This document shows positions 12,914 through 16,768 of a stretch of DNA of 64,000 nucleotides, piece by piece (positions within the stretch are counted from its first letter, which is position 1; the number at the start of each line of letters is the position of its first letter). The DNA comes from Thiomicrospira cyclica ALM1 (lineage in GTDB: Bacteria; Pseudomonadota; Gammaproteobacteria; Thiomicrospirales; Thiomicrospiraceae): assembly GCF_000214825.1 (NCBI RefSeq), contig NC_015581.1, positions 1,178,001 through 1,242,000 of the forward strand, read 5' to 3'. Made by a program: the position numbers and the translations under genes. The notes beneath the pieces were generated by a model that searched no databases, had not been told where the DNA came from, and was given only the letters and a program-made list of their open reading frames with translations.

Positions 12914-13831
12914 ATGGCCGATCAACAGCAACACTTAGCTTCCAATCTTATCGCAATCGCTAATGCCATGCCCGACCCAATCTTTGTTATGGGTCGGGAT
13001 GGTACTTACCTTGATATCATTGGCGGTAAAGAACGCAGCCTTTATGCCGATGGCCATCCATTAATTGGCAAAAACTACTCGCAGGTATTGCCTGAAAAAA
13101 TGGCAATGCGTTTTTTAAATGTGGTTCAAAAAGCCATTCAAACCCAATCACTGCAAGAAGTTGAATACCAACTCTCCAACGCCGAAGTACAAGGCATTGA
13201 GCCGATAGGTCCAAGCGGAGGGCAATGGTACGAGGCGCGGGTTTATCCTATTGATGGTGACGCCTACGGGCAACCAGCCGTTATTTGGCTGGCGATCAAT
13301 ATCACCCAACGCAAGCACATGGAAGAACAGATTGAACATCTGTCTCAAAACGATGCGTTGACCGGCTTCTACAATCGGGATTTCTTCTTAAATCTTTGCG
13401 ACGAATTAATTAACAAAGCACGGATGAATCATCAAGCCCTATCACTGATTAAAGTTGACCTCGATTGTTTCAAAAACATTACCGATGGCTATGGTCATGA
13501 ATTAGGTGATCAAGCCATATTGCAAGCTGCCCACGCACTCGAAGTGACATGCAAAGACTTGGGTTATATTGGCCGCTTAAGTTGTGATCAATTTATGTTA
13601 GTCTTAGATGGAGTCAAAGGCGTTGATGCTTTCCGTATCGCAAAATTAGCACAGGAAAAAATCACCGCGCAAAAAATTCGTCTTGACGAAAACACCACAA
13701 CTTGTTTGACTAGCAAAGCGGGTGTAACTGAATTGCGAGAAACGGATGAAGATAGTCGTCATTTGTTTAATCGCGTGCAGGAAGCGATTGTTGCGATTAA
13801 GAGCAGTCGTGAGAATACTAAAATGGCCTAA
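12914..13831 (+). CDS. PAS-GGDEF protein with degenerate GGDEF motif
   Basis: Residues ~12-135 form a PAS domain (IANAMPDPIFVMGRDG ... WLAINITQRK) and residues ~140-300 a GGDEF domain: NDALTGFYNRDFF, then VDLDCFKNITDGYGHELGDQ with the usual metal/GTP region. The signature loop reads SCDQF (residues 223-227) instead of GGDEF, so diguanylate cyclase activity is unlikely; no RxxD inhibitory site precedes it. No membrane segment is seen, so it is probably cytosolic. It may act as a receptor or binding partner rather than an enzyme. It starts 10 bases after ettA with a GGAG ribosome binding site and is likely co-transcribed. Confidence 0.85.
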   Translation: MADQQQHLASNLIAIANAMPDPIFVMGRDGTYLDIIGGKERSLYADGHPLIGKNYSQVLPEKMAMRFLNVVQKAIQTQSLQEVEYQLSNAEVQGIEPIGPSGGQWYEARVYPIDGDAYGQPAVIWLAINITQRKHMEEQIEHLSQNDALTGFYNRDFFLNLCDELINKARMNHQALSLIKVDLDCFKNITDGYGHELGDQAILQAAHALEVTCKDLGYIGRLSCDQFMLVLDGVKGVDAFRIAKLAQEKITAQKIRLDENTTTCLTSKAGVTELRETDEDSRHLFNRVQEAIVAIKSSRENTKMA

Positions 13832-13885: not shown

Positions 13886-14368
13886 ATGAAAAACTGGTTA
13901 AAAACCCTAGCTATTGCTCTGACACTTGGACTGGCAAGCACTGCTGGTCATGCCGCCGATGAGGGTGCAAAAGTTGTTTATCATGTTGATTTTAGTGATG
14001 TCACCCGCTATTCAGCCACTCTTACATCAATCAATAACATCATGAATGCCTACGAAAATGAGCTTATGGACGCCGATGTGCATTTAGTGTTTGTTGGTTT
14101 TGGGTTACGTTTTGTGACCGATGATGGCTTAAGCGGCACACCTTATGAACATGATGCCGCACTACTAGAGCGTCGCGATGAGTTAAAAGGTCGTCTTGAC
14201 GCCCTAATGAATTCACGTGGTGTACAAGTAAAGCTCTGTGATCATACGCGTAATGAAATTAACCTTGACCCAGCCAAGATCTACGATGGCGTTCAGTTGG
14301 TTGGCTCAGGCGTTTTTGATATTGCAATCTTGCAAAGTCAAGGCTATGCCTATCTAAAAATCCAATAA
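13886..14368 (+). CDS. Periplasmic DsrE/DsrF-like protein
   Basis: The start is an evident signal peptide (Lys-containing n-region, hydrophobic stretch to ~residue 20, AHA cleavage near residue 23). The mature ~137 residues resemble the DsrE/F-like fold: VVYHVDFSD, then DVHLVFVGFGLRFV, RRDELKGRLDALMNSRGVQVKLCDHTR and VGSGVFDIAILQSQGYAYLKI. Cys118 is the only cysteine and sits where cytoplasmic DsrE/TusD proteins have their sulfur-carrier Cys. Secreted homologues are frequent in sulfur-oxidising bacteria, with no settled role. GGAG precedes the ATG, and a bidirectional terminator follows. Confidence 0.75.
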   Translation: MKNWLKTLAIALTLGLASTAGHAADEGAKVVYHVDFSDVTRYSATLTSINNIMNAYENELMDADVHLVFVGFGLRFVTDDGLSGTPYEHDAALLERRDELKGRLDALMNSRGVQVKLCDHTRNEINLDPAKIYDGVQLVGSGVFDIAILQSQGYAYLKIQ

Positions 14369-14402: not shown

Positions 14403-14426
14403 AAAAAGCCCCTTCCGGGGCTTTTT
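14403..14426. terminator. Bidirectional intrinsic terminator
   Basis: A-tract, stem AAAGCCCC / GGGGCTTT with TTCC loop, T-tract. It lies between the convergent DsrE-like gene and the response regulator gene and has the A/T-tract needed in both directions. Confidence 0.9.
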
Positions 14427-14428
14427 TT

Positions 14429-15100
14429 CTACTCAATTTCAACAATATCGACCTTTGTTAAACCGGTATCTGTTGCATAGTGAGTAATTTCTGCTGGTGA
14501 TGTCGCACCGAGTTTCGTCATCAAGTTTTCACGATGCTTTGATACGGTACGGTCACTAATATCCAACATTACTGCAATATCCTTGGTTTTAAACCCTTCC
14601 GCAATCAACTTAGTCACTTGCTTTTCACGAACAGAAAGCTTGCGCATACTGCGCTTCTTCTTAACCGGACTAGCATTTTCAATGACGGCCATTACGTGGG
14701 GCTTAATAACATCATCAACAAACAAATTACCGTTAACAACCTTTACTAAACCATCTAATAAAGATGACTTAGCCACTGATTTCGTTGCAATACCATGAAC
14801 CCCCATTTCAAGAGCCTCAACCCAAACACTGGGCGTTAACGCCGAAGTCAATATCATAATTTTTACTTTTGGATGGCGACGCTTTAATTGTGAAATCGTA
14901 TTAAAGCCATTAAGTTTTGGCAATGCCAGTTCCATAACAATCAAGTCTGGCTCCGTCGCGCGAACCATTTCCATTGCAACAATACCATCACCCGCTTCTC
15001 CGACGACACTAAACCTTTCATCTGCTTCAATTAGGCTTTTTATAGCCCCACGAACCAACTCTTGATCTTCGGCTAATACTAGTTTTATTTTGTCAGACAT
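14429..15100 (-). CDS. LuxR/NarL-type response regulator with Glu at the phosphorylation site
   Basis: A receiver domain (residues ~1-120) followed by a LuxR-type helix-turn-helix (residues ~155-215; LSVREKQVTKLIAEGFKTKDIA). The receiver keeps the acidic pair E11-D12, Thr85 and Lys107, but the phospho-accepting Asp is Glu57 in IVMELALPKLNG (codon GAA). Such a change can mimic phosphorylation, so the protein may be active without a kinase, and none is adjacent. I chose the ATG at 15100, which has a GGAG ribosome binding site; the frame could extend 14 codons upstream without one. Targets are unknown. Confidence 0.9.
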   Translation of the reverse strand: MSDKIKLVLAEDQELVRGAIKSLIEADERFSVVGEAGDGIVAMEMVRATEPDLIVMELALPKLNGFNTISQLKRRHPKVKIMILTSALTPSVWVEALEMGVHGIATKSVAKSSLLDGLVKVVNGNLFVDDVIKPHVMAVIENASPVKKKRSMRKLSVREKQVTKLIAEGFKTKDIAVMLDISDRTVSKHRENLMTKLGATSPAEITHYATDTGLTKVDIVEIE

Positions 15101-15382
15101 TCCGGACTCCCGTCTTTGTGATAGAAAATGATTTAATAACAAACCCGCGAAAAAATAGGTAACATACGCTTATATTATTGGTGGTTATATTACCATGTAA
15201 ATTTTTTTTACAACAAGATTTTTCATATAAAACGAACTTAATTATCCCCATTTATGCAAAATTCAATAATTTAAACGCCAAATAGCAGGCCTCACACTTC
15301 TATTTACAAATACCCAGCACAAACACACTGGGCAAACTCAGGTAAAATAGGACTATTTTTTAGGCCGACAGGATAATGACAT
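15101..15382. other. AT-rich divergent intergenic region
   Basis: 282 bases between the response regulator and fumC. For the regulator, TTTACA (minus strand, 15201-15196) upstream of AT-rich -10-like sequence is a weak promoter candidate. For fumC, TAAAAT at 15343-15348 is a possible -10. An inverted repeat CCCAG / CTGGG (15313-15332) lies just upstream of it. I see no open frame or RNA gene. Confidence 0.4.
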
Positions 15383-16768
15383 ATGACCAATACTCGCACC
15401 GTCCACGACAGTATGGGCGCCATGACACTCCCAGAAAATGCACTCTATGGCGCACAAACGCAACGAGCCATCGAGAATTTCCCAATCAGCCACCAGCCAA
15501 TGCCAAAACCATTTATTTTGGCATTGGCTGAGGTTAAACTCGCTTGCGCAAAAGCCAATCATCAACTAGGACTCATGTCCGACCAACAGCTTAATGCCAT
15601 CGAGCAAGCCGTCAAACATATTTTGTGTCAACAACCAATGGACGCATTTCCAGTAGATGTTTTCCAAACAGGTTCTGGCACGAGTTCAAACATGAACATG
15701 AACGAAGTAATATCAACACTCGCAGAACAACTCGTTAATGTCAGCATCCACCCTAATGATCATGTCAACATGAGTCAAAGTTCAAATGACGTGATACCAA
15801 CGGCTTTGCACGTTAGCGCTAATCGCTTGATGAGCGAACAACTTCTACCGGCCATTAACCACCTGATTGAAGTTTTAGCAAATAAAGAGTTAGCCGTGGT
15901 CGGTATTGTTAAAACAGGTCGTACGCATTTAATGGATGCAATGCCTATTACGCTATCCCAAGAATTATCCGGCTGGCGAGCACAGCTATCTCAAAATCTG
16001 ACTCGTTTAACTCAAACTCAACAACGTCTAAAAGCACTTGCGCTTGGTGGCACAGCCGTCGGAACAGGTATTAACGCACCGACCAATTTTTCAGCAACCT
16101 TTTGCAAGCACCTCAGCGAGATGCACCAAGATACATACCAGCCAATGGATAATTTCTTTGTCGGCTTAAGTAGTCAAGACACGGTGTTGGAGTTGAGTGG
16201 CCAACTTAATGTTCTTGCGGCCAGTTTAATGAAAATTGCCAATGATTTACGCTGGATGAACTCGGGTCCTCTCGCTGGTTTGGCCGAAATTCAATTGCCG
16301 GCTTTGCAACCGGGGAGCTCTATTATGCCAGGCAAGGTAAACCCGGTTATACCAGAAGCTGTGGCAATGGTTTGCGCGCAGGTCACGGGCAACCATACCG
16401 CGATTACTATTGGAGCACAGTCTGGAAATTTTCAACTCAACGTAATGCTGCCGATGATCACCTATAATCTTTTAAACGCTATTGAATGGTTAAGCAACGC
16501 TATGTATCAACTTGCTGATAAAGCCATTCAAAATTTTAAGGTAAATTTAAGCCAGCTCGATCACGCCCTTGCTATTAACCCAATCCTAGTCACGGCTCTT
16601 AATGGTGTGGTAGGCTATGAAAAAGGTGCTGAAATTGCCAAAACCGCTTATCAAACAGGGCAAGCAGTTATTGATGTAGCTGAACAGCTCACTGACCTTG
16701 ATCGCGACACCTTAATGAAACTTTTAGACCCTAAACGTTTAACAGAGGGCGGTACACCCGGCCTTTAA
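15383..16768 (+). CDS. fumC: Fumarate hydratase class II
   Basis: Iron-independent fumarase of the TCA cycle, interconverting fumarate and malate. The 461-residue sequence carries QTGSGTSSNMNMNEV, the substrate-binding TGRTHLMDAMP region and the superfamily signature GSSIMPGKVNPV near residue 313. NAPTNF and GGTAVGTG also fit class II fumarase rather than argininosuccinate lyase or aspartase; aspartase is the nearest alternative. The ATG is preceded by AGGA. A thioredoxin gene follows after 24 bases. Confidence 0.92.
   Translation: MTNTRTVHDSMGAMTLPENALYGAQTQRAIENFPISHQPMPKPFILALAEVKLACAKANHQLGLMSDQQLNAIEQAVKHILCQQPMDAFPVDVFQTGSGTSSNMNMNEVISTLAEQLVNVSIHPNDHVNMSQSSNDVIPTALHVSANRLMSEQLLPAINHLIEVLANKELAVVGIVKTGRTHLMDAMPITLSQELSGWRAQLSQNLTRLTQTQQRLKALALGGTAVGTGINAPTNFSATFCKHLSEMHQDTYQPMDNFFVGLSSQDTVLELSGQLNVLAASLMKIANDLRWMNSGPLAGLAEIQLPALQPGSSIMPGKVNPVIPEAVAMVCAQVTGNHTAITIGAQSGNFQLNVMLPMITYNLLNAIEWLSNAMYQLADKAIQNFKVNLSQLDHALAINPILVTALNGVVGYEKGAEIAKTAYQTGQAVIDVAEQLTDLDRDTLMKLLDPKRLTEGGTPGL

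Follow-up and report, generated by a model that had tools for sequence, protein, structure and literature searches.

A Thiomicrospira response regulator with glutamate at its phospho-acceptor position probably derives from a phosphorelay that lost its kinase

How can a response regulator work when the aspartate normally phosphorylated in its receiver is replaced and its gene has no neighbouring kinase gene? The question is raised by a gene in the window, that is, the whole 64,000-nt stretch of DNA analyzed here (Thiomicrospira cyclica ALM1, NC_015581.1, forward-strand positions 1,178,001–1,242,000; coordinates count from its first letter; Table 1). The encoded protein combines an N-terminal receiver (Response_reg PF00072, E 1.6e-21, 77 bits) with a C-terminal GerE/LuxR-type helix-turn-helix (GerE PF00196, E 5.2e-18, 64.9 bits), both over the Pfam cut-offs, which is the NarL/FixJ layout. 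Among solved structures it is closest in sequence to NarL (1a04, E 5.1e-25), and it falls short of the threshold for all 25 NCBIfam families listed (89 matched). GGGAG precedes the start ATG, and orthologue starts align with the Met encoded there; a TTG at 15142, 5' of the ATG, is an unlikely alternative start. Canonical NarL/FixJ regulators carry a phosphorylatable aspartate in the receiver. Here the acceptor residue, number 57, is glutamate, in the context IVMELALPKLNG, and by sequence the domain is an aspartate-less (pseudo-)receiver. Translation and alignment bear out the first-pass annotation, which had read Glu57 (GAA) together with retained E11, D12, T85 and K107. Asp occupies the acceptor position in 10 of the 11 receiver domains found in the source genome (E ≤ 0.001), and this regulator alone has Glu, which argues that Glu57 is more than chance.

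Table 1. Features of the regulator gene, its upstream gap and its flanks (positions in the window)
Feature	Position	Strand	Remarks
DsrE-family gene	13886–14368	+	PF02635, E 8e-8; convergent to regulator
Inverted repeat and T-run between DsrE gene and regulator	14403–14428		terminator-like; by eye
Response regulator ORF, NarL/FixJ-type, 223 aa	14429–15100 (stop 14429–14431)	-	ATG at 15100
Codon 57, GAA (Glu), replacing phospho-acceptor Asp	14930–14932	-	translation and alignment
fumC–regulator gap, 282 bp	15101–15382		upstream kinase in 45/58 genomes instead
Putative gene relic, resembling DNA for the kinase REC-Hpt linker	15184–15224	-	nhmmer E 0.068
Inverted repeat TGTAAA-N5-TTTACA inside putative relic	15196–15212		sole match in genome
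fumC/aspA-superfamily gene	15383–16768	+	PF00206 and PF10415; divergent to regulator

To place residue 57 in the family, we collected regulator matches at E 1e-30 or better. They were present in 58 of 62 family genomes (59 copies); the four genomes without a match all belong to genus code g5. Four orthologues from genus code g2 are distant (32–35% identical) and were counted among the 58 because the same kinase cluster adjoins them. The orthologue alignment held 87 rows, 61 of them distinct, including three distant outgroup rows; a paralogue of the source genome (locus L002) fell under the cut and was left out. By genome, residue 57 is Asp in 52, Glu in three, Gly in two and Ser in one. All six non-Asp57 genomes belong to Thiomicrospira, represented by nine genomes: Glu57 occurs in the window's genome (G000), G053 and G060 (codons GAA, GAA and GAG), Gly57 in G055 and G059, Ser57 in G054, and Asp57 in G056, G057 and G058. 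Every Gly57 or Ser57 copy also has Asn12 instead of Asp12. G054 (T. microaerophila) carries two copies (L095:9266–9934 and L006:5001–5669), both Ser57 and Asn12, the second lying away from fumC and lacking an adjoining kinase. Given these shared features and the position of the second copy, the duplication may have come after acceptor loss.

The window regulator shares 93 and 90% of its residues with the two further Glu57 proteins, against 66–70% with the remaining orthologues of the genus. The first-pass annotation had held that Asp in close orthologues would mark a recent mutation or sequencing error; the closest relatives have Glu57. Its proposed check, whether Glu57 is fixed among orthologues, comes out positive for this three-species clade and negative for the other orthologues of the genus, with their Asp, Gly or Ser. 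The Glu clade has its own fixed residue at 20 positions where all seven other genus rows agree on another. These changes include H13Q, L56M, M60L, A86S and E88L, which, from receiver anatomy, presumably lie near the pocket, in loops around the site.

The main point, and one beyond the view of a single sequence, is what is absent from the fumC–regulator gap. In the genomes that have the usual kinase gene, a hybrid histidine kinase of ∼480–850 aa is encoded directly upstream of the regulator, on the same strand. Where the locus is long enough to tell, the kinase gene has fumC on one side and the regulator on the other, except in the four g2 genomes, which lack fumC at that place. All 45 of these genomes have Asp57, and in two of them (G036 and G035, draft contigs) the kinase is partial or frame-broken. 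Eight of the kinases were run against Pfam. HisKA, HATPase_c and REC were found in all eight (HisKA under the curated cut-off in two) and Hpt in six (over the cut-off in four), with no Hpt reported for the G058 and G056 kinases. A genome scan for Hpt placed the G056 kinase under the cut-off and the G057 kinase over it, with none listed for that of G058. The putative phospho-sites His55, Asp347 and Hpt His474 (first-row numbering) are invariant in 20 aligned kinases. By eye, the kinase N-terminus appears short and not membrane-like.

In 13 genomes no kinase adjoins the regulator. Six are the non-Asp57 Thiomicrospira; in the window, the neighbours are a DsrE-family ORF and a fumC/aspA-superfamily gene, and the first-pass annotation was right that no kinase gene is adjacent. 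The other seven are Thiomicrorhabdus (G025, G029, G031, G041, G043, G051 and G052), all with Asp57. The pocket is intact in five of these, and G025 and G051 have E12 and S85. A profile of 20 kinase rows found no orthologous kinase elsewhere in the 13 genomes, nor any relocated within its genome, the best scores being 279–342 bits. All 14 kinase candidates of G000 were scored (best 279 bits), and in several kinase-rich genomes the best 52 of up to 80. For comparison, adjacent kinases in seven kinase-bearing genomes scored 541–836 bits; five of these are profile rows, and those of G024 and G027, outside it, scored 824 and 541. In a second control set, with none in the profile, four of five adjacent kinases gave 486–783 bits. 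The fifth, G036, has its kinase cut by the contig end and yielded a paralogue match only, at 300 bits; kinase paralogues reach up to 353 bits. HisKA_3 kinases were also considered as hidden partners, and matched in none of the nine genus genomes (control positive in 7 of 14). With neither an adjoining kinase gene nor an orthologue of the usual partner elsewhere in its genome, the window regulator is an orphan, and we regard loss of the kinase relay as highly probable.

Three loci deserve mention here. The G027 kinase (L072:3358–5910) is a strongly diverged protein of 851 aa that still lies between fumC and the regulator, and on the CarB tree G027 is nested among kinase-less relatives. The kinase-less loci L063 and L064 (G051 and G025, the Thiomicrorhabdus heinhorstiae match), with Asp57, D12E and T85S, have two inserted genes directly downstream of the regulator, by eye encoding a PilZ/membrane-fusion protein and a glycosyltransferase.

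Does loss of the kinase entail loss of the acceptor? A strict rule is rejected by the seven kinase-less genomes with Asp57. Genome by genome, kinase absence and acceptor loss are associated (Fisher test, p 4e-5, a value that ignores kinship). On a CarB tree of 30 genomes, residue 57 and kinase presence each need a minimum of three changes, a count in which loss and gain are indistinguishable. Kinase presence differs within only three independent pairs on this tree: one also shows acceptor loss in the kinase-less member, none shows the reverse, and in two the acceptor state is the same. With so few pairs the association is not proven statistically. Kinase loss looks permissive for acceptor loss, and not sufficient, since the seven kinase-less Thiomicrorhabdus genomes retain Asp57. 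Genome-wide loss of signalling was rejected as the cause of acceptor loss: HisKA domains number 7 in the window's genome and 24 and 20 in the other Glu57 genomes. As an observation in its own right, signalling is strongly reduced in G000, whose whole genome (1.93 Mb) has 7 HisKA and 1 Hpt, against 14–38 HisKA and 6–11 Hpt in the other eight genomes of the genus.

The six kinase-less Thiomicrospira form one clade, with supports of 97/92 for CarB (30 genomes) and 96/94 for FumC and CarB combined (17 genomes). Within it, the Glu clade is supported at 100/100, and the Gly/Ser clade at 100/99 (CarB) and 100/100 (FumC and CarB). FumC alone gives 85/80 for the kinase-less clade, which is not firm. 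In AU tests on FumC and CarB, with groups named after a tree had been seen, joining the Glu clade to G056/G058 was rejected (p 0.021), joining the Gly/Ser clade to G056/G058 was not quite rejected (p 0.063), and a clade of the three Asp57 species was not rejected (p 0.363). The simplest reading would be a single kinase loss, after which position 57 changed in two different ways, with D12N added in one of the branches. Given the FumC support and the AU value of 0.063, Thiomicrospira may instead have lost the kinase twice.

The gap itself holds what appears to be a relic of the kinase gene. On the regulator strand, a relic-like stretch was found in the gaps of the kinase-less Thiomicrospira, strong in two, weaker in two and marginal in two. 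At the protein level, TKKVFCKKVIHVKIPTE of G054 matches TEKIFCKKIIHGKIPHE of the G057 kinase at 12 of 17 residues (E 5e-5 in a search of the six gaps); matches in G060, G053 and G000 are weaker, and there is none at that place in G055 or G059. We also built a DNA profile from the 3' part of the kinases of the three Asp57 Thiomicrospira genomes and ran it over whole loci with nhmmer. E-values were 4.7e-10 for G054, 1.3e-5 for G060, 0.0052 for G053, 0.068 for G000, 0.15 for G055 and 1 for G059. The relic is the top profile match in the five non-window loci; in the window it ranks second, behind 44316–44253 (E 0.017), and is not significant in the window alone. The second G054 regulator copy has no match with this profile.

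Pairwise alignments to G058 and G057 were each set against 500 shuffles. No shuffle reached the score for G000/G057, G053/G057, G060/G057, G060/G058, G054/G057 or G054/G058; three did so for G053/G058 and 58 for G000/G058. For the four G055 and G059 pairs, 22–184 of 500 shuffles did (the G055/G057 alignment being positioned elsewhere), and for the second G054 copy 215 and 381. The stretch is A+T-rich (the bias correction amounts to as much as 15 bits), so little weight can be put on the weaker matches. Taken together, the matches indicate that the kinase gene formerly stood at this site and that at least the clearest case among the six genomes still carries a relic.

Is the regulator still in use? 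Across the three Glu57 species the DNA-binding part shows 0 differences in 70 aa at a dS of 1.4–3.0, and the receiver 8–14 differences in 120 aa, with dS too high to compute. Silent sites are saturated and amino acid changes few, so both domains are under purifying selection, and the identity of the DNA-binding domain argues that the protein is in use. Glu57 has itself been maintained through a synonymous codon change (GAA/GAG).

We propose the following explanation, to which, as a whole, we assign a probability of about 0.68. The regulator would be the output half of a former phosphorelay, fed by a HisKA-HATPase-REC-Hpt hybrid kinase. The kinase gene would have been deleted in an ancestor of the six Thiomicrospira species, with a short remnant of it left on the upstream side of the regulator. 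After loss of the relay, Asp57 would have changed to Glu in the window's clade, which retains D12, T85 and K107, and to Gly or Ser, with D12N, in its sister clade. The present regulator would work without phosphorylation while reading its old DNA sites. Phosphorylation-independence is very probable. Glu57 would act as a phospho-mimic that, together with T85 and K107, probably stabilizes a partly active state, and output would be set mainly by the amount of protein; partial activation and control through expression level are the unproven steps. The chance that Glu57 has a real activating role is about even. The first-pass annotation had proposed a permanently active or differently controlled regulator. 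Control other than by the former phosphorelay is most likely; permanent activity does not follow.

Published receivers make phospho-mimicry plausible and set its limits. Glu is given as the commonest substitute for the acceptor Asp in receivers, at 26% (PMC4395418), and can mimic phospho-Asp (PMC4395418, PMC12632262), while an Asp-to-Glu change in response regulators is often insufficient for activation (PMC4395418).

Nor is mimicry required in this family. The Gly57/Ser57 sister clade with Asn12 cannot be made up of phospho-mimics, so mimicry is one possible outcome, not the rule, and the family can dispense with a negative charge at position 57. A rather unlikely alternative follows this line: the unphosphorylated form would be active, with activity residing in the DNA-binding domain and dimerization, and Glu57, Gly57 and Ser57 would merely be tolerated. 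Beyond the sister clade (Gly57 in two genomes and Ser57 in both copies of a third), the seven kinase-less genomes that retain Asp57 suggest that the unphosphorylated form may be usable, and ChxR is reported to bind DNA constitutively even with Asp or Ala in place of its Glu (PMC4395418). However, tolerance alone does not readily explain why Glu is maintained in three species over saturated silent divergence and through a codon change, or why, of the two acceptor-less clades, the Glu clade alone keeps D12 along with T85 and K107. A less probable alternative is that the receiver now senses another input, such as a small molecule, a partner protein or a different modification. The clade-specific fixed changes do include loop positions around the site, and such mechanisms are discussed for other pseudo-receivers (PMC12632262); yet the neighbourhood indicates neither partner nor ligand, and we consider this improbable. 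We give a negligible chance to Glu57 being an artefact of sequencing, a mutation of very recent date or part of a decaying gene or pseudogene: nothing speaks in favour, and the two closest species, at 90–93% identity, share the residue, with an open frame and identical DNA-binding parts.

By its sequence, the protein joins a known class. Aspartate-less or pseudo-receivers have had many independent origins, and characterized members are mostly orphans. In PMC12632262, 20 pseudo-receiver regulators are described, all but two of them orphans, and how bacterial pseudo-receivers are activated or inactivated is named an open question. As far as we searched, the Thiomicrospira regulator is a new member: the literature covered (titles and starts of abstracts, with few subscription journals) held no account of this gene and no paper joining Thiomicrospira, Thiomicrorhabdus and a response regulator.

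Comparison with known systems brings out what is distinctive. ChxR (Glu at the site) and RitR (Asn) likewise join an acceptor-less receiver to a DNA-binding domain. They are OmpR-type, whereas the window regulator is NarL/FixJ-type; unlike them, it has a putative kinase relic and near relatives that still possess both kinase and Asp, and these reveal intermediate steps. NarL, VraR, RcsB and EvgA of the NarL/FixJ family have the same two-domain layout, but the window regulator lacks both the Asp at the site and an adjoining kinase. In BvgAS/EvgAS-type phosphorelays, a hybrid kinase with REC and Hpt is followed by a NarL-type regulator, the order of parts seen in the relatives. The relatives' kinase differs in its N-terminus, and in the window's genome it is gone.

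What is unusual is a legible evolutionary series within one genus, in addition to the kinase gene relic. Thiomicrospira offers kinase with Asp57, no kinase with Glu57 and an intact pocket, and no kinase with Gly57 or Ser57 and Asn12; the neighbouring genus supplies the state with Asp57 and no kinase. Because the DNA-binding domains are strongly conserved throughout, a single target DNA would probably serve for comparing all of them. As a natural experiment, the series is well suited to showing how such switches gain independence.

The relic may be part of the regulator's own control region. Silent sites in the regulator are saturated among the three Glu57 species, yet in an alignment of their gaps identity across all three reaches 24 of 30 columns at the relic place, against 1–12 of 30 in windows starting 0–120 columns into the alignment. 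Within it lies the inverted repeat of Table 1, possibly a candidate operator or promoter element. By eye, TGTA-N9-TACA is readable at the relic place in seven of the nine genus genomes, G055 and G059 excepted. The equivalent stretch of the Asp57 kinases, a window chosen post hoc, has high third-position identity, ranking 4 and 2 of 487 windows in the two distant pairs and 21 of 488 in the near pair; by overall base identity the ranks are 20, 18 and 35. Tentatively, then, and at somewhat less than even odds, the relic may have been retained because it controls the regulator, as a promoter or operator that carries TGTA-N9-TACA and lay inside the kinase gene, in the REC-Hpt linker. A control element inside the kinase gene fits both the gap conservation and the third-position identity. 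If so, a regulatory sequence would have outlived its gene, sustained expression of the orphan regulator and permitted its phosphorylation-independence. We found no literature on an internal promoter in a kinase gene.

Further scans of the element gave negative results. As a recognized sigma-70 promoter it is not supported (2 sites against 1.4 expected). A regulon sharing the inverted repeat is not seen: whether the pattern searched was this repeat or a longer version, the genome has one place only. The 11-base core TTACCATGTAA, at up to one mismatch, gave 1 match in the window against 1.46 expected, so the short core alone is uninformative.

The flanking genes had been described as a secreted DsrE-like gene and fumC. 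The DsrE-family assignment stands, and its N-terminus is signal-peptide-like by eye. A PAS-GGDEF gene (12914–13831) adjoins it, and this order beside the regulator is kept in the Glu57 and Asp57 Thiomicrospira loci and absent in the Gly/Ser loci. The other neighbour belongs to the fumC/aspA superfamily, and the fumC label does not reach its threshold: its bit score is 512.9 against fumC_II (cut-off 664.75) and 496.5 against the aspartate ammonia-lyase subfamily (cut-off 510). Orthologues in G053, G060, G058 and G059 are similar (502–521 and 489–508 bits, respectively), and the substrate is uncertain. The gene evolves fast in the Glu57 clade, whose stem measures 0.66 changes per column on the FumC tree against 0.079 on the CarB tree.
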